Shown in pieces: positions 426 to 13,878 of a DNA stretch of 64,000 bases (position 1 is its first letter; every line of letters begins with the position of its first letter). The stretch comes from an uncultured Kiloniellaceae bacterium (lineage in GTDB: Bacteria; Pseudomonadota; Alphaproteobacteria; Kiloniellales; Kiloniellaceae). The notes under the pieces are model-generated. The model did not search any database and was not told the origin of the DNA. It saw only the letters and a program-made list of their open reading frames with translations. Location of the stretch: positions 1,302,001 to 1,366,000 of the forward strand of contig CANLSF010000001.1 of assembly GCA_947493695.1 (NCBI GenBank). The letters are read 5' to 3'. A program made the position numbers and the translations under genes.

Positions 426-3183
426 TTGACACCTGTTTCTTCTGAACCGCGAGGATTGCCGCGCGTACCTTGTCCGGGGTTGCGGGCAGGTTTCGAATGC
501 TCGCGCCCGTCGCGTCCCGGATTGCATTGAGGATCGCCGGAGCGGTTGCGACCAGAACGTGTTCGCCCAGGCCCTTGGCCCCGAAGGGACCATGGAGGTC
601 GGGTTCTTCAAGGATCACGGACTCGATCTGTGGAATGTCGCCGAAGGTCGGGATCAGATAGTCGTGCAGATTTTCGCTGCGCCCGGGAATGAATTCTTCC
701 ATCAGTGCGAGGCCGATGCCCTGGGCGGAACCGCCTTCGATCTGGCCCTCGATCAGTGTTGGATTGATGGCGCGCCCGACGTCGTGGACGGCGGTCAGCT
801 TCAGGAGTTTGATTGTGCCCAACGCCTCGTCGACCTCCAACTCGGTCATCTGCGCGCCGTAGCCGTAAGCCGCGTAAGGCTCACCCTGTCCGTTTTCGTC
901 AAGCGGTGAAGTCGGCGGATCGAAGGTGCCTTCGCCCATGGCGACGAAGCCTTTGTCGTCACTTTCCAGACCGGAGAGGGCGATGCGGTGCGTACCGTCT
1001 TCATCGCTGGCCACAAGGTCATTGCCTTCCAGCGACAATCGGGCCTCGCTTGCGACGTTCGCGAAACGCAAGAGCTTCTCGCGGAGGTTTTGGCCTGCCA
1101 GAAAGGCGGCTTTGCCCGAGATGAAGGTCTGACGCGATGCCGAGGTTTTACCCGCATCCGATGTTAGGTCCGTATCGTCGTTGACGAAGTCCATAGTCTC
1201 GATCGGCAGGCCGACTGCGTCGGCGCAGATTTGAGCGATGACTGTGTTGGCACCCTGGCCGATATCCACGGCGCCATTGAAAAGCACAATTCTGCCATCC
1301 CTCTGAAGGCCTACGTGGATCGTGGAGGGATTGGGAAGTGAGGTGTTGCCGCAGCCGTACCAGAGGCCGGAAAGGCCCACCCCGCGTCTGCGACCGCTGT
1401 TCCCGGGATCGGCGTTGAAGCTTGCCGCTCTGTCACGTGCGATCTGCCAACGGTCGCGCAAAGTTTCCAGGCACTTCTTTGCGCCGCAACCTTGATCAAA
1501 GACCTGCCCGGTCACTGTCGGGACGCCGTTTTCCAGTGCGTTGTTGATTCGAAATTCAAGCCGGTCGATGGCAAGCTTGTCGGCGAGTTCGTCGAAGAGA
1601 CTCTCTTGCGCGATCGCCGATTGCGGTACACCAAAGCCCCGGAACGCTCCGGAAACCGGCCCGTTGCTATGAACACCCTGGGCTTGCGCGCTATAGTTTG
1701 GAATCCGATAAGGACCGGAGGCGTGAACCGGGACGCGGTTGGCGACGGTCGGGCCCCAGGAGGCGTAGGCGCCGGTATTGAAGATACCATCGAACTTCAT
1801 CGCGCAGAGCTTGCCTTCCCGGGTGGCAGCGATCTTCGCGGTGATTTGTGACGGATGGCGCTTTGTCGTCGAGGCCATTGACTCCGTGCGTGTGTAGACC
1901 ATGCGAACAGGGCGTCCCAGCCGCCAGGCCGCAATAGCCAGAAATGGATGAGTCGAGAGATCCAGTTTGGAGCCAAAGCCTCCACCGACTGCGGTGGGCA
2001 TTACGCGGATCTGTTCCGGTGCAACGTTCAGAATGGCGGCGATTTCGTCGCGATTCATATAAGGCGCCTGGGTGCAGACTTCGATCTCAAGACGGTCTTC
2101 GACCCGGCGCGCCATTCCGGCTTCCGGTTCGATGTAGGCGTGTTCGATGTAGCCGGTCGAGAAGTCGCCCTCGACCACTGCAGCAGCCTCGCTAAAACCG
2201 GTGTCGATATCTCCACAGCGCACTTTACCGCGCGCCATGAGGTTGCCAGGCCGGCTTGCGTGGAGTTGGGGGGCCGATTCCGCCATAGCTTCGTTTGGTG
2301 TCAGAGTGTGAGGCAATTCCTGCCATTCAACGGGGAAGTCTGCGAGATCGAGCGCTTCGATTGCCGCAGGCGTACCGACAACGGCGGCAACAGCCTCGCT
2401 CCGGAACCGGGTTTCGCCCTCGGCAAATACCGGTTGGTCTGCAAAGGGCGGGATTACGCCAAAAAGATTGCGCCCGGGGATATCATCCGCGGTCAGCACG
2501 GCTTCTACACCCGGATGCGAAGTGACATAGTGCGCCAGATCACCGAGCGTAAAGCTAGCACGATGATACGGCGAGCGGACGACACGGATCAGCAAACTCT
2601 CGTCGAGTCCGATGTCTGCGCCAAAGATCTCCGTACCGCGAACCTTGGCCTCGCCATCGACCCGATTGAGGCGGGCGCCGACCGCGGCGCCGGAGTTACT
2701 GCGAAGTGGGGCGGTCGCGAAATCCGATGCATCCATCACCGCGCTTATGATCTTCCGGTAACCTGTGCAGCGGCAAAGAACGCCGCCGAGCGCATCCTTG
2801 ACCTGGTCTTCGCTCGGCTTTGCCGTCTTCTCCAGCAATGCTGCCGCAGACACGATCATGCCGGGCGTGCAGATGCCGCACTGCGCAGCGCCGTGATGCA
2901 GCATCGACTGTTGCAGTTTGGATAAGGTGCCGTTCGATGACAGACCCTCAATGGTGGTGACTGAGCGTCCCTGAACCTGTGCCGAAGCCGTCATGCAGGC
3001 GCAGACCGGGTCCCCGTCGATCAAGACCGTGCAGGCACCGCAGTCACCCGCGTCACAACCGACTTTTGTGCCGGTTTTACCCAGGCGCTCACGCAACAGC
3101 TTGGTCAGACGTTCAGCAGGAGGCGCTTCAACACGTGTTGCTTCTCCGTTGAGCGAAAAACTCAGGTCGATATCTGCACTCAT
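412..3183 (-). CDS. Molybdenum hydroxylase, fused [2Fe-2S] and Mo-cofactor subunits (xanthine dehydrogenase family)
   Basis: A 923-residue protein that joins two subunits usually encoded separately. Residues 1-160 are the two-[2Fe-2S] domain: CDAGDCGACTVLIDG (plant-ferredoxin-like cluster) then QCGICTPGM and CRCTGY (second cluster). From about residue 170 on it is the molybdopterin-cytosine-dinucleotide domain, with GGGFGSKLDLSTHP, GAFRGFGVPQSA, GQGANTV and GPFGAKGLGEH, the last carrying the conserved catalytic Glu. The layout resembles Desulfovibrio aldehyde oxidoreductase (Fe-S plus Mo in one chain), but here an FAD subunit is encoded separately just upstream. It should hydroxylate an N-heterocycle or aldehyde and pass electrons to the FAD subunit. 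The start overlaps the FAD-subunit stop (ATGA). The nicotinate-reductase-like neighbour favours an N-heterocycle substrate; the exact one is unknown. Confidence 0.88.
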   Translation of the reverse strand: MSADIDLSFSLNGEATRVEAPPAERLTKLLRERLGKTGTKVGCDAGDCGACTVLIDGDPVCACMTASAQVQGRSVTTIEGLSSNGTLSKLQQSMLHHGAAQCGICTPGMIVSAAALLEKTAKPSEDQVKDALGGVLCRCTGYRKIISAVMDASDFATAPLRSNSGAAVGARLNRVDGEAKVRGTEIFGADIGLDESLLIRVVRSPYHRASFTLGDLAHYVTSHPGVEAVLTADDIPGRNLFGVIPPFADQPVFAEGETRFRSEAVAAVVGTPAAIEALDLADFPVEWQELPHTLTPNEAMAESAPQLHASRPGNLMARGKVRCGDIDTGFSEAAAVVEGDFSTGYIEHAYIEPEAGMARRVEDRLEIEVCTQAPYMNRDEIAAILNVAPEQIRVMPTAVGGGFGSKLDLSTHPFLAIAAWRLGRPVRMVYTRTESMASTTKRHPSQITAKIAATREGKLCAMKFDGIFNTGAYASWGPTVANRVPVHASGPYRIPNYSAQAQGVHSNGPVSGAFRGFGVPQSAIAQESLFDELADKLAIDRLEFRINNALENGVPTVTGQVFDQGCGAKKCLETLRDRWQIARDRAASFNADPGNSGRRRGVGLSGLWYGCGNTSLPNPSTIHVGLQRDGRIVLFNGAVDIGQGANTVIAQICADAVGLPIETMDFVNDDTDLTSDAGKTSASRQTFISGKAAFLAGQNLREKLLRFANVASEARLSLEGNDLVASDEDGTHRIALSGLESDDKGFVAMGEGTFDPPTSPLDENGQGEPYAAYGYGAQMTELEVDEALGTIKLLKLTAVHDVGRAINPTLIEGQIEGGSAQGIGLALMEEFIPGRSENLHDYLIPTFGDIPQIESVILEEPDLHGPFGAKGLGEHVLVATAPAILNAIRDATGASIRNLPATPDKVRAAILAVQKKQVSNGSS

Positions 3184-4049
3184 CGTGCTTCGTCCTCTGG
3201 TGTCGCTACTTTTTCCAATGCTCTTTTGACCAGTTCTTCAGCGACGTCCATGCGGTACTCCGAAGTTCCACGAACGTCGTTGATCGGCGTCAGACCGATG
3301 ACATCATCGGCAACGACCCTTGCTGACAGACCTTGTGCAGCTGTCTGTCCGATCAGGCGTTCTTCCAGTCTTTTCAGGCGTTGCGCGACGGGTGAGCAGG
3401 AGCCGACAGCAATCCGGGCGTCGATGATCTTTCCATTCTTGTCAGGCACGATAACCACCGCGACCATGGCGATCGAAATCACCAGATAGCGGCGGGCGCC
3501 AAGTTTAAGAAATGAGCTTCGGCCCTCTGGCGCGATATCGGGTATGTGCAAGGCACTCACAAGTTCGTCTGAATGCCGGTCCGTTTTGCGAACGCCTGTG
3601 ATAAAATCGCCGAGTGGCAGACGGCGATTCCCACCCGGATAAGCCAGCTCGATCTCCGCATTCAGCGTCAGCAATGGCGGCACGCCGTCGGCGGCGGGCG
3701 AGGCGTTACAGATGTTTCCGGCGAGGGTGCCGCTGTTCTGGATCTGGATCGAACCGACTTCCCGCGCGGCTGCCTTGAGGCCGTCGAATGCGGCGGGCAG
3801 CGCTGTTTCAATCACGTCTGTCCATGTGGTCAATCCACCCAGTCGCCAGCCTGTCGCCGTTTTTGAAATGCCTCGGAGTTCAGGAATGGCGGTCAGGTCA
3901 AGCAGGCTTTCGGAGATCGGCTGATCTCCCTGTGCCGGATAAAAATCGGTCCCGCCGGCCAGAATGCGCCAGGACCCCTGCTCCAGACTCTGCAAAGCGT
4001 CGTCGAGACGAGTCGGCCTTGAGAATTCCCCCATACGCTTAACCACCAC
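3180..4049 (-). CDS. FAD-binding subunit of molybdenum hydroxylase (CoxM/XdhB-like)
   Basis: This 289-residue protein is the medium subunit of a xanthine-dehydrogenase-family enzyme. ILAGGTDFYP near residue 30 is the FAD-pyrophosphate binding loop, and GSIQIQNSGTLAGNICNASPAADGVPPLL near residue 100 is the second FAD motif; the C-terminal part matches the CO-dehydrogenase flavoprotein C-terminal domain. It should accept electrons from the Fe-S/Mo chain encoded next and pass them to NAD, quinone or oxygen. It is the first gene of the three-gene minus-strand operon, and its stop overlaps the next start by four bases. The ATG 15 bases further in (MGEFSRP, start 4034) fits family N-termini equally well. 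A 17-base palindrome lies about 35 bases upstream. Confidence 0.88.
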   Translation of the reverse strand: MVVKRMGEFSRPTRLDDALQSLEQGSWRILAGGTDFYPAQGDQPISESLLDLTAIPELRGISKTATGWRLGGLTTWTDVIETALPAAFDGLKAAAREVGSIQIQNSGTLAGNICNASPAADGVPPLLTLNAEIELAYPGGNRRLPLGDFITGVRKTDRHSDELVSALHIPDIAPEGRSSFLKLGARRYLVISIAMVAVVIVPDKNGKIIDARIAVGSCSPVAQRLKRLEERLIGQTAAQGLSARVVADDVIGLTPINDVRGTSEYRMDVAEELVKRALEKVATPEDEAR

Positions 4050-4083
4050 CCTGATTTTATATGCGTATTTTTATCGTATGTAT

Positions 4084-4100
4084 ACCAATGCAGCATTGGT
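4084..4100. promoter_or_regulatory. Palindrome ACCAATGC-A-GCATTGGT, candidate operator of the Mo-hydroxylase operon
   Basis: A perfect 8-base inverted repeat with a one-base centre lies about 35 bases upstream of the FAD-subunit start, where an operator or activator site would sit. The symmetry suits a dimeric HTH regulator such as a GntR, TetR or MarR type. No regulator gene is adjacent in the window, so the binding protein is unknown. Confidence 0.45.
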
Positions 4101-4620
4101 GCAACAACATCGTGACCAAGGTTAGGGTTCGGCGTCAACAAAAAACTGTAAAGCGCGATTGCTGATGGGGATGAGCTTAGCAAGCTCGATTGAGGGCAGG
4201 CGGATGGGGGATCCTGGTGTGATGGGATAGAAATGAGATGGTTCCGCAGCTTGTCACCAAAGCCCGGAAATCTCGGTAATTACCATGTCCGTCGAAGGCA
4301 GGACTACGCCTCGAGCTAAGTCATATCCTCCTCGTATAAGTGCCCGCGGAACGACCGTAAGTAAAAAATAAAACACCATTTAAGACAAAGTAGGTGAAAA
4401 ATATCTCGCATAAGGCGTATAATTTCATTTGTAGACTATAATTAACGAGATGACATTTTGTTTGTATAGTAACGGTATCAAAGTGGCGGTGTTGTCCTCA
4501 GCCGCTTTGTCTGGAGTTTAAATCTCGGTTTGGACTGCGCGGTGCTTTGGTCTCAATACTTTTGCCCAGGGCGTGGTTAAAGAGGGGCGATGTAACCCTT
4601 TTTCGGGTTTCGGCGACGGC
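4101..4620. other. Intergenic region between divergent Mo-hydroxylase operon and histidine kinase
   Basis: About 520 bases without a convincing gene. ORFs on either strand here are short and lack coding character. The segment 4380-4480 is AT-rich and probably carries the histidine kinase promoter, but no clean -35/-10 pair stands out. The GTG at 4573 gives an N-terminal extension of the kinase of 16 residues that is not favoured. Confidence 0.5.
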
Positions 4621-6909
4621 ATGAACAATATTCGCAAAGAAAGACGAGCCTATATTGCGGTTGCCGCAGGTTTGATCAGTCTGCTGATTTTCATCGGATT
4701 TTTTATCCATAGCGCAGAACGGGAACAGCACAGACTGGCAGAGGCTGAATTAAAGGCTGTCGCCAGTGGGATCGGCACGCTAGCTGCTTTCGAGTTGCGG
4801 AATTCGTCGACGCCAAATCTGGTCGGCTTGTTGCGGCAACTCGCTCTCGCGGACGAATTACTGCGGATTCGCTTTCAGGACAATGAAACCGATAAGACTT
4901 ACGAGGTCGTGCGGTCGCGAGATGATCTTTTTCTCGATCCTGACGACCCGCGGCGCGATGTTTCTTATGAGGTCATCTCGCTCCAAATCGACGTTGTCCA
5001 CGAGGGCAAGCTGCAAGGGCGTCTGGAACTGGAGAAAGCGGTTCTGCCGCCGCCAGATTCGCGCTCATTGGCAGAGCATCTGGTGGTATCCCTCCTGACC
5101 TTGGTTGCGGCCTTTGCATCTGCCTTGATAGGTCTAAAGATTTTTGTAGTCGCACGCAGCTCTTCAACGATTGACGCACAGCACCCGCTATCGCCTCTGG
5201 AGGCGATTGTGAATCCTTTCCGCGCGCATGATTCGCCCGGTTTTGCCGCCTTAAGGCCCGACCAGGTTGCCGCCGTCGTGCGACAGGCCGGCTTTACGAT
5301 GCTGGTCAATTTGGCAAACATATCCTTTTTGCTGGGCATTCTCTGGCAGGAGGTTCCTCTTGCGCTGCTGACACCCTGGGCTCTGTTCATTTATCTTTTG
5401 GTCCTCTCCGCACTCTGGTCATGGTGGCGAAACCACAAACGCCCGTTGCCGGAGGCCGTGTCCAAGCGCGCTTTACGCAGGATGACTTACCGGGCGGGTG
5501 TATTGGGGTTGGCGTGGGGAATTGCGCTTTCGGTCTTCTTCACCGATGCAAGCCCCATAGCGCGCTATATTCTGATTGCAGTCGGGCTTGGCACTGCGGC
5601 GGGCGGCACGGCGGCGCTTGCGCCGGTTCCTTCCGCTGCAATCGCCTTTACCAGTGCCATCCTAGTGCCGGGAGCTTTGCGGTTTGCAACGCTTGAAGGC
5701 GAGGGCTTTATCACCCTCGCTATTCTTTGCGTGCTTTTCGCCTGTGCCATGGGAGCTTTCCTGAGCCAAGTCTATCACGCCTTCGCGCGCAACGTTCTGG
5801 CGCGGCTGGATGAGGCGCGCCATGCCGAAACCATTGCGTTGGTGATGAATACCTATGAGGAGCAGGCCTCAGACTGGTTGTGGGAGACGGACCCTGACGG
5901 CCGTTTGCGTTCGGTGCCGCAGCGGATGGACCTGTTGTTCGGAAAAAATATTGGCGGGCTGACGGGCCGTACCTTCCGGGAGCTTGTGGGGCCGTCGGAA
6001 GCCAATGTCTGGCACCGGCTGTTCCAACGCCTTGAATCCGGCGAGAGTTTTCGGAGTGAAGTTATAGAAACGCTCGATCACAAGGGGGAACGGCGCTGGA
6101 TATCGCTTTCCGGGCGATGCCGAACAAACGGCGAGTGGCATGGTGTCGGGTCGGATGTCACCGAGCGTGAAAGAGCTCTAAATTCGATGCGCGAAGCGAC
6201 GGAGGCAGCAGAAGCGGCGTCGCGGGTGACCTCGGCATTTCTGGCCACCACAAGTCACGAACTGCGCACGCCTTTGAATGCAATCATCGGATTTTCGCAG
6301 ATGTTGACCATGGGCCACCTCAAACCGGAGAAGGTGAAGGATTACACCCAGACGATAAACAACGCGGGACAGCACCTGCTGCAGATCGTCAACGGTATCC
6401 TCGAAATGGCGCAGATTGAGGCTGGCAGCAAGAGGTTGGTCCGTGAAACATTTGATCTGGAAGAGGTCATTGGGGCCTCTGTCGATTTCCTCTCCTTTGA
6501 GGCCAGTAAGGCCAAAGTCGAGGTCCGCGTTGCCGCCAATGAAAAGCCGATCCGGATTTTCGCCGACCGGCAGGCTTTGCGTCAGGTGCTTTTGAACATC
6601 ATCGGGAACGCGGTCAAGTTCACGCCTGAAGGCGGCTCGATCGATATCGCCAGCAGGAAATCGCAGGAACGCATCGAGATAATTGTGACGGATACAGGCA
6701 TTGGCATCTCGCAACGCCATATCGACCGGGTTTTTCAGCCCTTTGCCCAGGCCGACGACCGTCTGGCACGGCGTTACGAAGGAACCGGCCTCGGTCTGTC
6801 CATCGCAAAGGGCTTAATCGAACTTCACGGAGGTAATCTGCAGATAAGCAGCCATGTCGGAGAAGGCACGACTCTCATTATCACATTGCCAGCCAGCTTG
6901 CCGGAATAA
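4621..6909 (+). CDS. Membrane-bound PAS sensor histidine kinase (paralogue 1)
   Basis: About 762 residues from ATG 4621; the track starts at a GTG 48 bases earlier, but alignment with the paralogue at 10652 supports the shorter form. One TM helix lies near the N-terminus (AAGLISLLIFIGFF), followed by a roughly 120-residue extracytoplasmic segment, a second TM helix, a cluster of about four hydrophobic helices (residues 230-380), a PAS-like segment around ASDWLWETD, then the HisKA box TTSHELRTPLNAIIGFSQ with the phospho-His and a HATPase domain (NIIGNAVKF, DTGIGI, GTGLGLSIAKGL). All catalytic boxes are intact. The DHp sequence resembles PleC/DivJ-type alphaproteobacterial kinases. No response regulator is encoded nearby, so the partner is unknown. 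Confidence 0.9.
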   Translation: MNNIRKERRAYIAVAAGLISLLIFIGFFIHSAEREQHRLAEAELKAVASGIGTLAAFELRNSSTPNLVGLLRQLALADELLRIRFQDNETDKTYEVVRSRDDLFLDPDDPRRDVSYEVISLQIDVVHEGKLQGRLELEKAVLPPPDSRSLAEHLVVSLLTLVAAFASALIGLKIFVVARSSSTIDAQHPLSPLEAIVNPFRAHDSPGFAALRPDQVAAVVRQAGFTMLVNLANISFLLGILWQEVPLALLTPWALFIYLLVLSALWSWWRNHKRPLPEAVSKRALRRMTYRAGVLGLAWGIALSVFFTDASPIARYILIAVGLGTAAGGTAALAPVPSAAIAFTSAILVPGALRFATLEGEGFITLAILCVLFACAMGAFLSQVYHAFARNVLARLDEARHAETIALVMNTYEEQASDWLWETDPDGRLRSVPQRMDLLFGKNIGGLTGRTFRELVGPSEANVWHRLFQRLESGESFRSEVIETLDHKGERRWISLSGRCRTNGEWHGVGSDVTERERALNSMREATEAAEAASRVTSAFLATTSHELRTPLNAIIGFSQMLTMGHLKPEKVKDYTQTINNAGQHLLQIVNGILEMAQIEAGSKRLVRETFDLEEVIGASVDFLSFEASKAKVEVRVAANEKPIRIFADRQALRQVLLNIIGNAVKFTPEGGSIDIASRKSQERIEIIVTDTGIGISQRHIDRVFQPFAQADDRLARRYEGTGLGLSIAKGLIELHGGNLQISSHVGEGTTLIITLPASLPE

Positions 6910-6936
6910 GGGACGAGTCTCAGAGGAAACGGAAGT

Positions 6937-7191
6937 TTATTTCCGTGATTCAATCTCCGCCAGGACGCTCTGTTTCTCTTCGGCGCTCAGTATCGGCCAG
7001 TCGCGGATCTCGTCGACGTTGCGCAGACAGCCGATGCAGAGGCCCGAGGCGTCGTCCAGCTGGCAGACGCTGATACAGGGGGACGGGATCGTGCGATCAA
7101 TGCCGCGAAGCCGCGCTTGTTTGCGGCGTTCTCTGCGCGCAGCGCGCTCGGGATCCTGGTTTTCGCTCACTGCTGCGTAACCCTTGCTCAT
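6937..7191 (-). CDS. DUF1289 domain small cysteine-rich protein
   Basis: An 84-residue protein. The core SPCISVCQLDDASGLCIGCLRN has the four-cysteine pattern of DUF1289, probably a metal or Fe-S binding knuckle, followed by EIRDWPILSAEEKQ, typical of this short family. The N-terminal 35 residues are charged (RRERRKQARLRG) and an internal start is possible. It is convergent with the histidine kinase, with a 27-base gap, and divergent from the cyclase gene. Function of the family is not established. Confidence 0.8.
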   Translation of the reverse strand: MSKGYAAVSENQDPERAARRERRKQARLRGIDRTIPSPCISVCQLDDASGLCIGCLRNVDEIRDWPILSAEEKQSVLAEIESRK

Positions 7192-7375
7192 GCGAAGTCG
7201 AGGTCAGTGTGTCTGGCTTTAACGCCTGCAGTTTCGACCTTAGCTTCAATCCGCGGTAAACGATCTTAACGGGATCGTGTTCCTCTAACGCCACAGCAGG
7301 TTTGCCACGACAGGAAATCCCAATATATCCTTCCTTGCTGAATAGCCAGCCAAAGTCGCGAGAGGCAGTGTATTT

Positions 7376-9085
7376 ATGGTTCGTCGATTACGCCTTTGGA
7401 GTGGTTTGTTCCTCATGGCGTTTGTCTTTACCCACTATGCGAACCATGCACTTGGAATCGTCTCGCTGGAATGGATGGAGGCAGGCCGCAAGGTTTTTCT
7501 GTCTTTCTGGCGATTTTTGCCGATCAGCGCCTTATTTTATGCCGCGCTGACCCTGCATGTGCTGCTTGCCTTCTGGGCGCTCTATCAGCGCAGGCGGATC
7601 AAAATGGCGCCTTGGGAGTTTTGGCAAACACTGCTGGGTTTCGCGATTCCGCCGCTGTTGGTCGCACACATCCTGGGGACGCGCTTTGTTCACGAAGTGT
7701 ATGGAATTCAGGACAACTACTTCCTTGAACTGCTGATCTTCTTTGTCCTGCGCCCGGATTATGGGATCAGGCAGTTCGTTACGATTGTGGTCGTCTGGGT
7801 TCACGGGTGTCTGGGCATGCATTTCTGGCTGCGGCTGAAACCCTGGTATCCACGAATCTTGCCCTTTGCTGCGGCGTTGGCGCTGTTGGTCCCGGTTTTG
7901 GGTGCAGTCGGCGTGTTTGTCGCCGGGCAACAGATCGCGGTTCTGGCACAGGATCCCGTATGGCTGAAGGAGGTTCAGGCGACCGTGCGGCTGGCGACCA
8001 GAGACCAGGTGGCGCAAGTCGGGATGCTCAACGACATTGTGCTTGGTGTTTTGGGGGCACTCCTGGTTCTGTCTCTATCGGGCCGGGTTATTCGACGTTT
8101 CGTGGACCGGCTGCGTGGTTTGGTGCATCTGACCTATCCCGATGGCCGGCGCGTGGCTGTGGTCCAGGGAACAACGATATTGGAAGCGAGCCGTGGCGCC
8201 GGTATCGGACACGCGTCCGTTTGCGGTGGCCGGGGACGCTGTTCCACCTGCCGAGTCCGTATCGGCGCGGGTTTAGAGGTCTTGCCGCCACCGAGCCCTG
8301 ACGAACAACGTGTCCTGGAGCGTGTCGGCGCCCCACCCAACCAGCGCCTTGCCTGCCAGACGCGGCCGCAGGCCGATCTTGAAGTCACGCCTGTGCTGCC
8401 GCCCAGCATCAGCCCGCGTCAGGCTGAAGGCGGGGCTGATTATCTGCAGGGACAGGAACGGGAAATCGCTATTCTCTTTGCGGACCTTCGTGGCTTCACG
8501 ACCCTGGCCGAACATAAACTGCCTTACGATGTTGTGTTCATCCTGAACCGGTATTTTGCAGCCATGGGCGCTGCGGTTGAGGCTTCCGGCGGACGCTTGG
8601 ACAAGTTCATTGGCGACGGTGTGATGGCGTTGTTCGGCATTGAGGGTGGGCCGCAAGCGGGCAGCCGCAATGCATTGGCTGCCGCCCGCGCCATGGCAGA
8701 GCGCCTGGAGGATTTGAACCGTGCCCTTGCCAATGATCTCGACACGCCGCTTCGGATCGGGATCGGGATACATGTCGGGCCGGTCATTGTCGGAGAGATG
8801 GGTTATGGTTCGGCGACCTCCGTGACGGCGATCGGCGATGCGGTCAATACCGCCAGCCGGCTGGAGGCCATGACCAAGGATTTCGCTGCGCAGCTTGTGA
8901 TCTCAGATCCGGTGGCCGAACTGGCCAATCTGGATACGACGGCTTTTACCAGCCAGAATATCGAGGTTCGGGGCCGTGAAGGCGGGTTGATGGTCAGGGT
9001 CATAAAGGAGGCGAAGGACCTCACACATCCTGAAAAACCGAGTAACGAAAAGGCCGCGAAGAGGAATGCTGAACAACTCGGTTAG
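7376..9085 (+). CDS. Membrane His-rich region / [2Fe-2S] ferredoxin / class III nucleotide cyclase fusion
   Basis: A 569-residue three-part protein. Residues 1-240 form about six TM helices with histidines in or near the membrane (FTHYANH, LTLHVLL, VAHILGTRFVHE, WVHGCLGMHFW), a pattern seen in b-type cytochrome anchors such as SdhC/D; heme binding is my inference. Residues 245-335 are a plant-type ferredoxin with CGGRGRCSTCRVRI and a last Cys in LACQT. Residues 360-540 are a class III cyclase: ILFADLRGFT and GDGVMALFG give both metal aspartates, KFIGDG carries the Lys usual for ATP specificity, and NTASRLE gives the transition-state Asn and Arg. It should make cAMP, plausibly gated by electron supply. 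A GAGAGG Shine-Dalgarno sequence precedes the ATG. Ferredoxin-cyclase fusions are known in alphaproteobacteria; the signal they sense is not. Confidence 0.88.
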   Translation: MVRRLRLWSGLFLMAFVFTHYANHALGIVSLEWMEAGRKVFLSFWRFLPISALFYAALTLHVLLAFWALYQRRRIKMAPWEFWQTLLGFAIPPLLVAHILGTRFVHEVYGIQDNYFLELLIFFVLRPDYGIRQFVTIVVVWVHGCLGMHFWLRLKPWYPRILPFAAALALLVPVLGAVGVFVAGQQIAVLAQDPVWLKEVQATVRLATRDQVAQVGMLNDIVLGVLGALLVLSLSGRVIRRFVDRLRGLVHLTYPDGRRVAVVQGTTILEASRGAGIGHASVCGGRGRCSTCRVRIGAGLEVLPPPSPDEQRVLERVGAPPNQRLACQTRPQADLEVTPVLPPSISPRQAEGGADYLQGQEREIAILFADLRGFTTLAEHKLPYDVVFILNRYFAAMGAAVEASGGRLDKFIGDGVMALFGIEGGPQAGSRNALAAARAMAERLEDLNRALANDLDTPLRIGIGIHVGPVIVGEMGYGSATSVTAIGDAVNTASRLEAMTKDFAAQLVISDPVAELANLDTTAFTSQNIEVRGREGGLMVRVIKEAKDLTHPEKPSNEKAAKRNAEQLG

Positions 9086-9188
9086 GGCGTGTCGCGTTTG
9101 ATCGTACTTTTCGCTCCTTTGAATACACTCGCTGCCCCAATCTCTGCCCCGGCTCTGCCGTCCTCTTTCCGGTTGGGCGTGACAGGCG

Positions 9189-9671
9189 CTAATGCGCGGC
9201 CTTAAAGGCTGTGACGGCTTCTTGGAGTTCCAGATATTCGACGCATTCTGTTCCACAGGCTGTTTTCAGGACGTTCAGGCGTTGCTCGGCACGGGGAAGA
9301 TCCGACATTTCAAGATAAAGCTCGCCAAGATATTCGTTGGCGCCGAGATGTTTCGGGTCCAGCTCAAGAGCTTGGTTGTAATTGCGCAGGGCTGCATCCC
9401 AGTCACCAAGTTTCCGGAGGCTGAAACCCATGAGGCTGAAAGCGTCGGGGTTACGTGGGTCTGTCGCGATCACCTTTTTCAGAAGGGGAACTGCCGAGGC
9501 GTAGCTGCCCAGATCGATCAGCTTAATGGCTTTTGCCAATTCGGAGCGTTCACCTGTCGCAGTGTCACTCTCGTAGCCGCCGACGGGCCCAGCGGCAGGT
9601 GCCTGCGATATGGATAGAGAGAAAACGACGAGAGCCGCTGCAATTGCGATGAGACTGGCTTTGCGAGTCAT
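9189..9671 (-). CDS. Exported TPR-repeat protein
   Basis: About 160 residues from ATG 9671; the track start at 9704 would put 11 extra residues before a clear signal peptide (MTRKASLIAIAAALVVFSLSISQAPAAG). The mature part holds at least two TPR units (AVPLLKKVIATDPRNPDAFSLMGFSLRKLGDWDAALRNYNQALELDPKHLGANEYLGELYLEM), then a Cys pair (CGTEC) near the C-terminus that could form a disulfide in the periplasm. It is probably a periplasmic protein-interaction scaffold. It follows recX on the same strand with a 38-base gap and is convergent with the cyclase gene. Confidence 0.85.
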   Translation of the reverse strand: MTRKASLIAIAAALVVFSLSISQAPAAGPVGGYESDTATGERSELAKAIKLIDLGSYASAVPLLKKVIATDPRNPDAFSLMGFSLRKLGDWDAALRNYNQALELDPKHLGANEYLGELYLEMSDLPRAEQRLNVLKTACGTECVEYLELQEAVTAFKAAH

Positions 9672-9709
9672 GTGAGGCCCTGGAATTATCGTGGTAGCGC
9701 TCATTTTGG

Positions 9710-10318
9710 TCAGTTCCCGCTTTGTGCCTTCAGGTTCTCGACCACCTCGAGATTCTCGGCGTCGATAATCCTGCGCACAAGTTCGTAGCTGAAACCCTTT
9801 CTTCCAAGTGCCGCCATGTCCCGATCCCGTTTTTCCGCGCGCTGTTCCTCGTTGCGATAGGGGCCGAGCCGTCGCTTTCTTGCATAAACGATGGCGGCCG
9901 CGACTTCTGGGTCGGCAGTGTCGTCTCTAAGCCCGGAGAATGCAGCGTCTATATGGTTCGCAGCGACACCCTTGGCAGCCAGGTCGGCACGAATTCCGCG
10001 TGCTGACGTGCCGCGCCGGTGAAGGCTGCGCGCACGGGTTTCTGCATAGTTCCGGTCATCCAGCAGGCCATTGCGGGTCAGCTTATCCAGGATCGCGTCA
10101 ATGTGCTTGGCACCTTCCTCCCGGTCCGTGCCATGCGCGCGGGCAGAGCGTTCGACGCGCATCATCAGCAAGCGAGCCAGGTGTGCCCGCGAAGTCGCGT
10201 AGCGGTCCAGGTGGTACAACGCAGCATTTTCCAGGTACCGCGCAGTCGCCTTTTTGGGACCTTTTCTTCGGCGGTCGCCCTGTTTTTGCCCGCTATCGGG
10301 TTCGTATTCTTCAGTCAT
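9710..10318 (-). CDS. recX: RecX-family regulator of RecA
   Basis: A 202-residue protein built of short three-helix repeats as in RecX: ATARYLENAALYHLDRYATSRAHLARLLMMRV, then IDAILDKLTRNGLLDDRNYAETRARSLHRRGTSARGIRADLAAKGV, then a third repeat near RKRRLGPYR. RecX binds RecA filaments and limits their extension. No recA is adjacent, which is common in alphaproteobacteria. The N-terminus is strongly basic (KQGDRRRKGPKKATAR). It is divergent from histidine kinase paralogue 2. Confidence 0.85.
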   Translation of the reverse strand: MTEEYEPDSGQKQGDRRRKGPKKATARYLENAALYHLDRYATSRAHLARLLMMRVERSARAHGTDREEGAKHIDAILDKLTRNGLLDDRNYAETRARSLHRRGTSARGIRADLAAKGVAANHIDAAFSGLRDDTADPEVAAAIVYARKRRLGPYRNEEQRAEKRDRDMAALGRKGFSYELVRRIIDAENLEVVENLKAQSGN

Positions 10319-10651
10319 AGGATTTTAGAATGCCACGAGAAACGCCTGTGTTCACTGATAATGCGTTATGTGACTTATGCTCCTATAAATCGCCGGTTAT
10401 ACCCTTGGATAGCGGCCTTTTGCAGATGATTCGTAAACATATTTAAACCGTATGTGTGCACTGTGACTTTCCGACGTTACGTCGTTTACAAATGCGATTG
10501 TAGCTTTGGGTGAAACAGGTGTTGCGATCGACACAACTGCGAATTGTTCTAAGTAATAGACCTCATTTTTTAATCACATTGGCCTGGATACACTTCAGGC
10601 ACAGAAAAGACGAAGTGAATTAGGGATGCAGTTCTCCTAGATGCACGCGAC
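10319..10651. other. Divergent intergenic region between recX and histidine kinase 2
   Basis: 333 bases with no supported gene. The stretch is more AT-rich than the flanking genes and must carry both promoters. A short inverted repeat CGACG-tta-CGTCG lies near 10472-10484. I see no SOS-type box that I could support for recX. Confidence 0.45.
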
Positions 10652-12946
10652 ATGACAGCAACTGACAGAAAATTAGTAGACACGCAGGTTTATGCATTCT
10701 TTGCTGCGGTCCTTGTTGTTTTGATGCTGCTCTTCGGCTTCTTCATTGACAGTGCTGATAGTGAGCAGCGGCGCCTTGTGCAGGTCGAGATGTCCCTGGT
10801 GGCTCGCGAAGCTGCGCATATAGCGGTGCCTCAACTGCGCGCGAACAACACCGACGTTCTGCAAAGCAGCCTGGATGAAATCCTGGCCCACCATGACGTT
10901 TCTTATCTTGCTGTGTTGGACATGCGCTCCGGCCTGACCATCAGCGCACCGGCAGGGGCAAAAGCAACAGGAGCGTCGAGCGACAGGATGTCTATCACTC
11001 TTCCCCTTCAGTCGGGTGATCAACGGCTGGGGACTCTCGTACTTGAGAAGGACCTGATGAAGTCCTCTGAGGCGCAGTCTGTCGGTAAGCACCTTGCGTT
11101 ATCGCTCGGGGCCTTGTCGGCTTTGATTGCTGCGGCCTGGGCGGGGCTCAGATTCTTTGTGATCACGCGACGGTCCAAAGACGTCAATCATGCCCGGCCC
11201 TTTTCGACGCTTGCTGCGATTACCAGTCCGTTTCTTGAGCGGGACCATCCGGATTTTGCAGCGCTCAGGCCGGATCAGGTTGCTGCGATTGTGCGGCAAT
11301 CCGGGTTCACTATGGCGCTGGTTCTGTCGAATGGCGCATTCCTGGTGAGTTCTATCTGGTCACAGGTTCCACAGTGGATTCTCATCACGTGGGTCGGGGT
11401 CGTGGGGAGTTTAGCGATTGCCAGTCTGCGCGTCTGGCTGCGGAACCGTCACCGTCCTTTGCCCGCAGAGGTCTCCAGGGCGACCTTGCGCCGGATCACC
11501 TATCAGGCAGGCCTTCTGGGCTTGGCCTGGGGTATTGCGCTCTCGGTGTTCTTTGCCAGTGTCGATACAAACAGCCGTTTTGTACTGATTGCACTGGGAC
11601 TGGGAATGGCGGCGGGCGGGACAGCGACCCTGGCGTCCGTACCTTCCGCCGCTTTGGCCTTTACGAGCGCGATTCTGATCCCGGCGTTGCTCCGGTTTGC
11701 CACACTGGAAGGAGACGGCTTCGCAACCCTGGCCATTCTCTGCATTCTTTTTGCAGGTTCGATGAGCGCCTTTCTGGCGCAGGCCTACCACAGCTTCGCC
11801 CGCAACGTCCTGGCGCGGCAGGCACAGGCACGTCAGGCTGAGACAATTGCCCTGGTGCTCAATACCTATGAGGAACAAGCGTCGGACTGGCTCTGGGAAA
11901 CGGACGACAAGCAACGTTTTGTGTCACCGCCCGAGCGCATGGAGCATCTGTTCGGTCATAAACCCGGCACACTCGCAAATTTGAAACTGACTGCGATTTC
12001 GCCGGATAGCCAACGCGAGGGCTGGCCGCAGCTTATGCATGCTTTTTCGAACCAGGAAAATTTTCGCAGTCTGGTTATCAGGACCGTTGATCTTGACGGT
12101 CAGGATCGTTGGATTTCGCTTTCGGGGCGGAAGCAGGAGGAGGGCGGATGGCACGGCGTCGGGTCAGATGTCACGATCCGGGAGACGGCCCTTATCCAGC
12201 TGCGCGACGCCATGGAGGAGGCGAAATCGGCGTCCCGCGCCACGACGGCATTCCTGGCGGCAACCAGTCATGAATTGAGAACGCCATTGAACGCCATCAT
12301 CGGCTTTTCGCAGCTTTTGGAGAGCGTTGAAGTGCCTCCTGAGAAAACCAAAGACTATCTGCAAACGATCAGTGGCGCCGGCACGCATCTCCTAAATATC
12401 GTAAACGGTATCCTCGAAATGGCCCAGATAGAGGCTGGCCAGAAGACCCTGCGCTGTGAGGAGATCGATGTCGTGAACGTAATCCAGGAAGCCATCGAGT
12501 TTCTGTCATTACAGTCGGAAACCGCCGGTACGAATCTTAGATTTACGCATCCGAAAATAGCCGCGACGGTAACGGCTGATCCACAAGCCCTGCGGCAGGT
12601 CCTGCTCAACGTCATCGGCAATGCCCTGAAGTTTACGCCAGCGGGTGGTGTCGTTGATATCGAAGTTGTCATAGAGGATGAAGAGACTGTGGTGGTCATT
12701 TCCGATACAGGCATCGGAATCGCCAAAGAGGACGTGAAGCGGGTTCTTCAGCCTTTTGCGCAGGTCGATGACCGGCTGGAGCGGCGTTATGACGGAACTG
12801 GTCTTGGACTTCCAATCGCCAAAGGTCTGATCGATATACATAACGGCAGCTTCTCGATTGAGAGCCACCCGGGTGAAGGGACCAGGGTTCGCATCGGACT
12901 GCCGCGTTCCGCCGAGATGCCCCGGCAGATTGCTCAGTCCGGCTGA
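10652..12946 (+). CDS. Membrane-bound PAS sensor histidine kinase (paralogue 2)
   Basis: 764 residues with the same architecture as the kinase at 4621: N-terminal TM helix (YAFFAAVLVVLMLLFGFF), extracytoplasmic loop, second TM helix, a multi-helix hydrophobic block, a PAS-like segment at ASDWLWETDD, then HisKA (AATSHELRTPLNAIIGFSQLL) and HATPase (NVIGNALKF, DTGIGI, GTGLGLPIAKGL). Long stretches match paralogue 1 closely, for example in the block ALRPDQVAA(I/V)VRQ and the motif NTYEEQASDWLWETD, so the pair arose by duplication. The extracytoplasmic loops differ most, which suggests different inputs. No response regulator is adjacent. Confidence 0.9.
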   Translation: MTATDRKLVDTQVYAFFAAVLVVLMLLFGFFIDSADSEQRRLVQVEMSLVAREAAHIAVPQLRANNTDVLQSSLDEILAHHDVSYLAVLDMRSGLTISAPAGAKATGASSDRMSITLPLQSGDQRLGTLVLEKDLMKSSEAQSVGKHLALSLGALSALIAAAWAGLRFFVITRRSKDVNHARPFSTLAAITSPFLERDHPDFAALRPDQVAAIVRQSGFTMALVLSNGAFLVSSIWSQVPQWILITWVGVVGSLAIASLRVWLRNRHRPLPAEVSRATLRRITYQAGLLGLAWGIALSVFFASVDTNSRFVLIALGLGMAAGGTATLASVPSAALAFTSAILIPALLRFATLEGDGFATLAILCILFAGSMSAFLAQAYHSFARNVLARQAQARQAETIALVLNTYEEQASDWLWETDDKQRFVSPPERMEHLFGHKPGTLANLKLTAISPDSQREGWPQLMHAFSNQENFRSLVIRTVDLDGQDRWISLSGRKQEEGGWHGVGSDVTIRETALIQLRDAMEEAKSASRATTAFLAATSHELRTPLNAIIGFSQLLESVEVPPEKTKDYLQTISGAGTHLLNIVNGILEMAQIEAGQKTLRCEEIDVVNVIQEAIEFLSLQSETAGTNLRFTHPKIAATVTADPQALRQVLLNVIGNALKFTPAGGVVDIEVVIEDEETVVVISDTGIGIAKEDVKRVLQPFAQVDDRLERRYDGTGLGLPIAKGLIDIHNGSFSIESHPGEGTRVRIGLPRSAEMPRQIAQSG

Positions 12947-13065
12947 CACCCTTTGGACGCTGCAGGTTTTGCTATGGCCCATGTTTGCTGTTTTGGGGAC
13001 CGTCTCTTTGTTTTGAAAGAACGGATCTCTTGCAAGCTGCGTCTCTGAGGACTATTTCATCCGAT

Positions 13066-13878
13066 ATGCAATCTTCTCCGACGACCAAGCCTTTGTCGCC
13101 CCGCAAGATGGGTGTGATCAACGGGCGCGGACTCTGGACGCTCTACGTCAAGGAAGTCCGCCGCTTCATGAATGTTTTCTCCCAGACGCTTCTGGCGCCG
13201 ATGGTGACGACCCTGCTGTTTCTCGCGGTCTTCGCCCTCGCGCTGGGTGGCGGCGGACGCCAGGTGGGGGGCGTGGACTACATCCTGTTCCTCGGGCCGG
13301 GTCTGATCATGATGTCCATGGTTCAGAACGCCTTCGCGAACACTTCCTCCTCAATCCTGATTGCCAAGGTGCAGGGCAATATCGTCGATCTGCTGATGCC
13401 GCCGCTCTCGCCTGCAGAACTGGTGATCGGAGTTGCCGGTGGTGGTGTGACGCGTGGGGTCATGGTGGGATTCGTGGTCGCACTCGGGATGTCGATCTTC
13501 GTGCCTCTGTCGATCCATAATGCCGGTTTCATTCTCTGGCACGCGATCAACGCGTCGCTGATGCTTGCGCTTCTGGGCTTGATCGGTGGGATCTGGGCTG
13601 AAAAGTTCGATCACATCGCGGCGGTGACCAACTTCATCATTACCCCTTTTTCCTTCCTCTCGGGCACCTTCTATTCGATTGAACGCTTGCCTGAGAACTG
13701 GCGCTTTATTGCGGACTTCAACCCCTTTTTCTACATGATCGACGGGTTCCGCTACGGCTTTATCGGTCATGCGGATTCTTCGCTGGCCGTGGGTTTCTTT
13801 CTGGTTCTTATCGTTAACATAGGTCTCGGGTTTACGGCTCACCGCATGATTTCGACGGGATACCGCCTTAAGGCATGA
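13066..13878 (+). CDS. ABC-2 type transporter permease (first of pair)
   Basis: About 270 residues from ATG 13066; the longer track form adds 27 residues without family character. It has the ABC-2 fold of about six TM helices, with an amphipathic N-terminus (GLWTLYVKEVRRF), the central signature region (ILIAKVQGNIVDLLMPPLSPAELVIG) and a late segment (TPFSFLSGTFYSIERLPENWRFIADFNPFFYMIDGFRYG) typical of NodJ/DrrB-like exporters. It should form the membrane channel of an exporter. A homologous permease follows after 44 bases, but no ATPase gene is in this neighbourhood. Confidence 0.87.
   Translation: MQSSPTTKPLSPRKMGVINGRGLWTLYVKEVRRFMNVFSQTLLAPMVTTLLFLAVFALALGGGGRQVGGVDYILFLGPGLIMMSMVQNAFANTSSSILIAKVQGNIVDLLMPPLSPAELVIGVAGGGVTRGVMVGFVVALGMSIFVPLSIHNAGFILWHAINASLMLALLGLIGGIWAEKFDHIAAVTNFIITPFSFLSGTFYSIERLPENWRFIADFNPFFYMIDGFRYGFIGHADSSLAVGFFLVLIVNIGLGFTAHRMISTGYRLKA

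Follow-up and report, generated by a model that had tools for sequence, protein, structure and literature searches.

The closest described relative of the protein studied here is CyaC of Sinorhizobium meliloti, for which the primary paper reportedly names a tetra-histidine signature; replacement of these histidines is said to result in loss of heme and of activity. CyaC (SMc01818) is described as a class III cyclase whose hexahelical domain binds two heme-B groups, likely to be arranged like those of succinate dehydrogenases and fumarate reductases of the diheme type (Klein et al., 2023, PMC10463352). The enzyme carries a [2Fe-2S] cluster, its heme is oxidised and reduced by ubiquinone, and its activity is redox-sensitive (Wissig et al., 2019, Mol Microbiol 112:16, cited in PMC10463352). 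The same idea of a quinone-responsive, diheme-B CyaC is found in two other papers (PMC9552081; PMC13259868).

In this study, a window of 64,000 nucleotides from an uncultured Kiloniellaceae bacterium was analysed. It contains an intact reading frame, beginning with ATG, for a protein with a six-helix membrane anchor, a Fer2 domain and a class III nucleotide cyclase domain (Table 1). The Fer2 domain was placed by Pfam between anchor and cyclase; the first 250 residues matched no family in the Pfam scan. The cluster motif reads C283-GGRGR-C289-ST-C292 ... C327, and all six residues of the catalytic set (D370, K410, D414, T484, N491, and R495) are present. In the full-length AlphaFold model (mean pLDDT 90.2) the individual domains are confident, and the cyclase domain matched solved class III cyclases in a fold search, the best being 1wc1. 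The relative placement of the domains is uncertain, because the pTM is 0.62 and the linker at residues 344-352 has low confidence. Judged by sequence, model and analogy together, the gene very probably encodes a CyaC-type redox-regulated adenylate cyclase, the explanation being taken as a whole and including a chain from quinone through heme and cluster to cAMP.

Table 1. Coordinates of the putative cyaC gene, its predicted domains and neighbors in the window, and of related modules at other loci (positions with an L prefix).
Feature	Position	Strand	Description and evidence
Putative CyaC-type adenylate cyclase gene	7376..9085	+	569 aa, 6TM - Fer2 - class III cyclase; ORF, translation, Pfam, relatives
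Six-helix membrane anchor, residues 1-247	7376..8116	+	AlphaFold helices, invariant H20/H61/H98/H143, weak cytochrome b matches of relatives
Fer2 [2Fe-2S] domain, residues 256-332	8141..8371	+	Pfam PF00111, E 1.8e-11; ligands C283, C289, C292, C327
Class III nucleotide cyclase domain, residues 361-535	8456..8980	+	Pfam PF00211 Guanylate_cyc, E 3.1e-18
DUF1289 protein gene, divergent upstream	6940..7191	-	84 aa; Pfam PF06945, E 9e-19; context
TPR protein gene, convergent downstream	9189..9704	-	171 aa; Pfam TPR; context
Stand-alone 6TM-Fer2 protein	L119:2920-4080	+	Fer2 + four His, no cyclase
Stand-alone 6TM-Fer2 protein	L120:4971-6095	-	Fer2 + four His, no cyclase
Stand-alone 6TM-Fer2 protein	L174:5017-6174	-	Fer2 + four His, no cyclase
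Module + MscS channel gene pair	L119:2920-6008	+	
Module + MscS channel gene pair	L120:2767-6095	-	
Module + MscS channel gene pair	L174:2714-6174	-	

A sequence-only reading of this gene had proposed about six transmembrane helices, a complete [2Fe-2S] motif and an apparently complete class III cyclase, and all three were borne out. Residues 1-250 were modelled as a confident bundle of six membrane-length helices (AlphaFold with a 56-sequence alignment; pLDDT 95.8, pTM 0.90), at positions 2-28, 48-71, 79-109, 127-152, 158-190, and 209-246. Conservation was assessed with 145 full-length sequences, pairwise less than 90% identical and down to 33% identical to the window protein, which were gathered from the class, from named genomes and from the phylum; the set is biased towards query-like sequences and contains full-length copies only. 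Within it H20, H61, H98, and H143 are invariant (145/145), one on each of TM1 to TM4. The proposed check of histidine conservation across homologues was passed: of the seven histidines pointed out earlier these four are fixed, while H24 (120/145), H149 (101/145), and H106 (69/145) vary. The four fixed residues are candidates for the ligation of two b-hemes. By residue count from the cytoplasmic helix ends, H61 and H143 are the pair closer to the cytoplasm, and H20 and H98 lie deeper. These depths would suit one proximal and one distal heme and suggest pairing of H20 with H98 and of H61 with H143. From the positions of Arg and Lys at the helix ends, the bundle seems to have both its termini on the cytoplasmic side, which would place ferredoxin and cyclase in the cytoplasm as well.

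By sequence the anchor appears to resemble the diheme cytochrome b subunits of succinate/fumarate:quinone oxidoreductases, at scores below the curated cut-offs. The anchors of 56 relatives were scanned singly against NCBIfam and Pfam, and every cytochrome b match was of this sub-threshold kind. The NCBIfam family sdhC_b558_fam was by far the leading match, with 25 of the 56 anchors (best E 2e-5); two fumarate reductase cytochrome b models matched weakly (two anchors each), and the next family after sdhC_b558_fam, which looks unrelated, matched seven members. Sdh_cyt was the commonest weak match in Pfam (12/56). The window protein itself matched neither sdhC_b558_fam nor Sdh_cyt, and a search of the phylum for sdhC_b558 members returned two sub-threshold fragments only. 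No link between the anchor and solved structures was detected by sequence, even in a profile search at E 10. In a Foldseek search of the PDB with the anchor the sole outlier was 5xmj_C, the cytochrome b subunit of the Desulfovibrio gigas quinol:fumarate reductase, with a match that was not significant (probability 0.47, TM 0.41/0.46, E 2.3); all other listed matches had probabilities of 0.09 or less. Both the oxidoreductase subunits and the anchor are helix bundles with four histidines as candidate ligands of two b-hemes. The anchor differs in being fused to Fer2 and cyclase domains and in its surroundings, as no flavoprotein or iron-sulfur subunit gene was found among the neighbors examined (3180 to 13878). 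FrdC has five membrane helices, one fewer than the window anchor.

The cluster cysteines 283, 289, 292, and 327 are invariant in the same 145 sequences, as are D370 and D414. The other catalytic residues are nearly so: R495 was retained in 144/145, N491 in 140/145, T484 in 138/145, and K410 in 129/145. The cyclase domain is the best conserved part of the family, with a mean identity of 0.65 vs. 0.42 for the anchor. Two full-length relatives, L179:1868-3664 (-) and L180:3179-5311 (-), keep all four histidines and all four cysteines, and in their cyclase sites D-T-D-M-S-R and D-A-D-I-M-Q replace D-K-D-T-N-R; the sensor would be intact in both and the cyclase domain possibly inactive. Five CyaC-like proteins (L175, L176, L177, L178, and L193), four of them from a single non-alphaproteobacterial family, have Q at the position of K410. 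Their nucleotide specificity may differ.

Of 385 genomes sampled from the class, 112 carry the anchor-ferredoxin part (E <= 1e-15), which was also detected in other classes of the phylum. Since full-length relatives were found class-wide and in those other classes, the observation is far beyond chance. The closest relatives among named genomes are from Pelagibius and an uncultured Kiloniellaceae (80-86% identical). Fer2-cyclase proteins without a membrane anchor also exist: one has 337 aa (L122:3496-4506), and many others have about 310 aa. In L122, as in the window protein, Fer2 precedes a class III cyclase, and the two proteins are 42% identical across residues 255-516; the soluble fusions differ in having no anchor and hence no candidate heme ligands. 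Among the opened matches in the sampled genomes, no fusion of the anchor to outputs besides cyclase was noticed, only stand-alone copies. One cyclase of about 504 aa (L121:3208-4722, +) combines in a single polypeptide two CDGSH stretches, a Fer2 and a Guanylate_cyc domain and, at the C-terminus, a Rieske domain; it has no evident membrane anchor and would have up to four Fe-S sites round one cyclase. Nothing relevant on a CDGSH/Rieske cyclase was found in a literature search that covered open-licence papers only. Three small membrane proteins (L204:2225-2818, L206:2353-2961, and L207:1744-2784, all +) match helices 1-3 of the anchor profile at E ~1e-8, and no Pfam family was found for them in the Pfam scan; L204 apparently retains three of the four anchor histidines. 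One cyaC copy (L126:2919-5474, +) is broken across two overlapping frames, by a frameshift or a sequencing error.

Three stand-alone 6TM-Fer2 proteins carry, as judged by eye from translations, the four histidines. The gene immediately downstream encodes an MscS-type channel in 3/3 cases, with a 4-base overlap; the channels have 643 aa (L119), 735 aa (L120), and 768 aa (L174). Two of the loci (L120 and L174) belong to one bacterial family and L119 to another. Tentatively, the six-helix, tetra-histidine and [2Fe-2S] unit could be a portable quinone/redox sensor beyond cyclases and might redox-gate an MscS-type channel as a subunit, a possibility that we hold somewhat doubtful on three cases, from three of the sampled alphaproteobacterial genomes, in which function is read from gene order. 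Nothing relevant on a redox-linked MscS channel was found in the search of open-licence papers. If functional, the cyclase-free copies beside MscS genes would mean that the sensor serves ion channels in addition to cAMP signalling. This side finding is more novel than the window cyclase itself.

By analogy, it is very likely that the window enzyme reads quinone reduction via two hemes and an iron-sulfur cluster and answers with cyclic AMP. The six helices would hold two b-hemes, H20 and H98 ligating the outer and H61 and H143 the cytoplasmic-side one, as helix order and depth suggest. The ubiquinone pool would reduce or oxidise the hemes, and their state would be passed on, presumably via the [2Fe-2S] domain that links the anchor to the cyclase. 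The class III cyclase would act as a dimer, and in this organism an oxidised quinone pool would presumably lead to more cAMP. The electron route from heme to [2Fe-2S] cluster to cyclase is one that we infer for the window protein; no demonstration of the heme-to-cluster step was found in the literature searched.

It has to be considered whether anchor and cluster do act in series. The anchor could bind heme while the [2Fe-2S] domain is a second, independent sensor (of oxidative stress or cluster supply) or the acceptor of a soluble reductase, in which case the cyclase would integrate two redox inputs. The anchorless Fer2-cyclases point in this direction, as Fer2 can evidently serve a cyclase alone, and so does the uncertain domain placement in the full-length model. 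We nevertheless regard such an arrangement as rather unlikely, for anchor and Fer2 co-occur without a cyclase in L119, L120, and L174, suggesting one functional unit.

Another question is whether the anchor is a heme protein at all. A role as lipid receptor has been reported for the membrane domains of mammalian cyclases and for that of Rv1625c (PMC11606603; PMC12505454), and like other hexahelical cyclase anchors the present one could sense a lipid or another ligand, its histidines being structural. The sub-threshold level of the cytochrome b similarity would agree with this. An invariant histidine on each of four consecutive helices, through 33% identity, argues for heme instead, as do the lead of sdhC_b558_fam among the family matches and the diheme-B reported for S. 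meliloti CyaC (PMC10463352), so that a lipid sensor seems very improbable. It is scarcely credible that the protein is a redox enzyme, an electron carrier, with a vestigial cyclase domain: copies without a cyclase exist, and L179 and L180 lack several catalytic residues while keeping all histidines and cysteines, but the six catalytic residues are complete in the window protein, and conservation within the family is highest in the cyclase. The CyaC-type reading, with hemes, cluster and cyclase in one chain of events, is the one we prefer.

The genes flanking the window cyaC encode a DUF1289 protein, a histidine kinase, a TPR protein and RecX. Among 80 related loci, 23 have the DUF1289 gene on the opposite strand, 37 have a homologue of the TPR gene, and 24 have recX. 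The DUF1289 gene, encoding fewer than 100 aa, lay outside the program-made list of reading frames. Two membrane-bound histidine kinases of like architecture (4573-6909 and 10652-12946, both +) flank the cyaC region; copies of high identity were seen for both in the two closest relatives only. Promoter and terminator scans gave nothing beyond chance. The source genome encodes 12 class III cyclase domains and 10 cNMP-binding domains, the latter making the presence of a cAMP receptor likely.

Like S. meliloti CyaC, the window protein joins a six-helix anchor, a [2Fe-2S] cluster and a class III adenylate cyclase in a single chain, and its four invariant membrane histidines are as expected for a diheme-B anchor of this kind. 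CyaC variants changed at K410, T484, N491, and R495 have been used (PMC10463352), and these residues are identical, down to their numbers, in the window protein. The numbers may coincide in part by chance, since relatives differ in the distance between the first membrane histidine and the catalytic site (the window protein's value was found in 42/146; 111/146 share the same K-T-N-R spacing). The host belongs to a different order of Alphaproteobacteria, its nearest named relatives being Kiloniellales. In S. meliloti cyaC is adjoined by a TetR gene, cycR; among the flanking genes examined here no TetR gene was found, the immediate neighbors being the divergent DUF1289 and the convergent TPR gene instead. 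Adjacency of cycR is a trait of S. meliloti that probably does not define the CyaC type. The earlier proposal that quinone or heme and the [2Fe-2S] cluster set cAMP output fits the evidence and agrees with S. meliloti CyaC, but its claim to novelty, a new b-heme site in this position, was rejected: CyaC was published as a diheme-B cyclase in 2019. The window protein is a well-preserved relative of CyaC, and the sensing idea is sound, not new. The comparison names four fixed histidines as targets for mutation, and a design characterised in one rhizobium emerges as a widespread, strictly conserved sensor.
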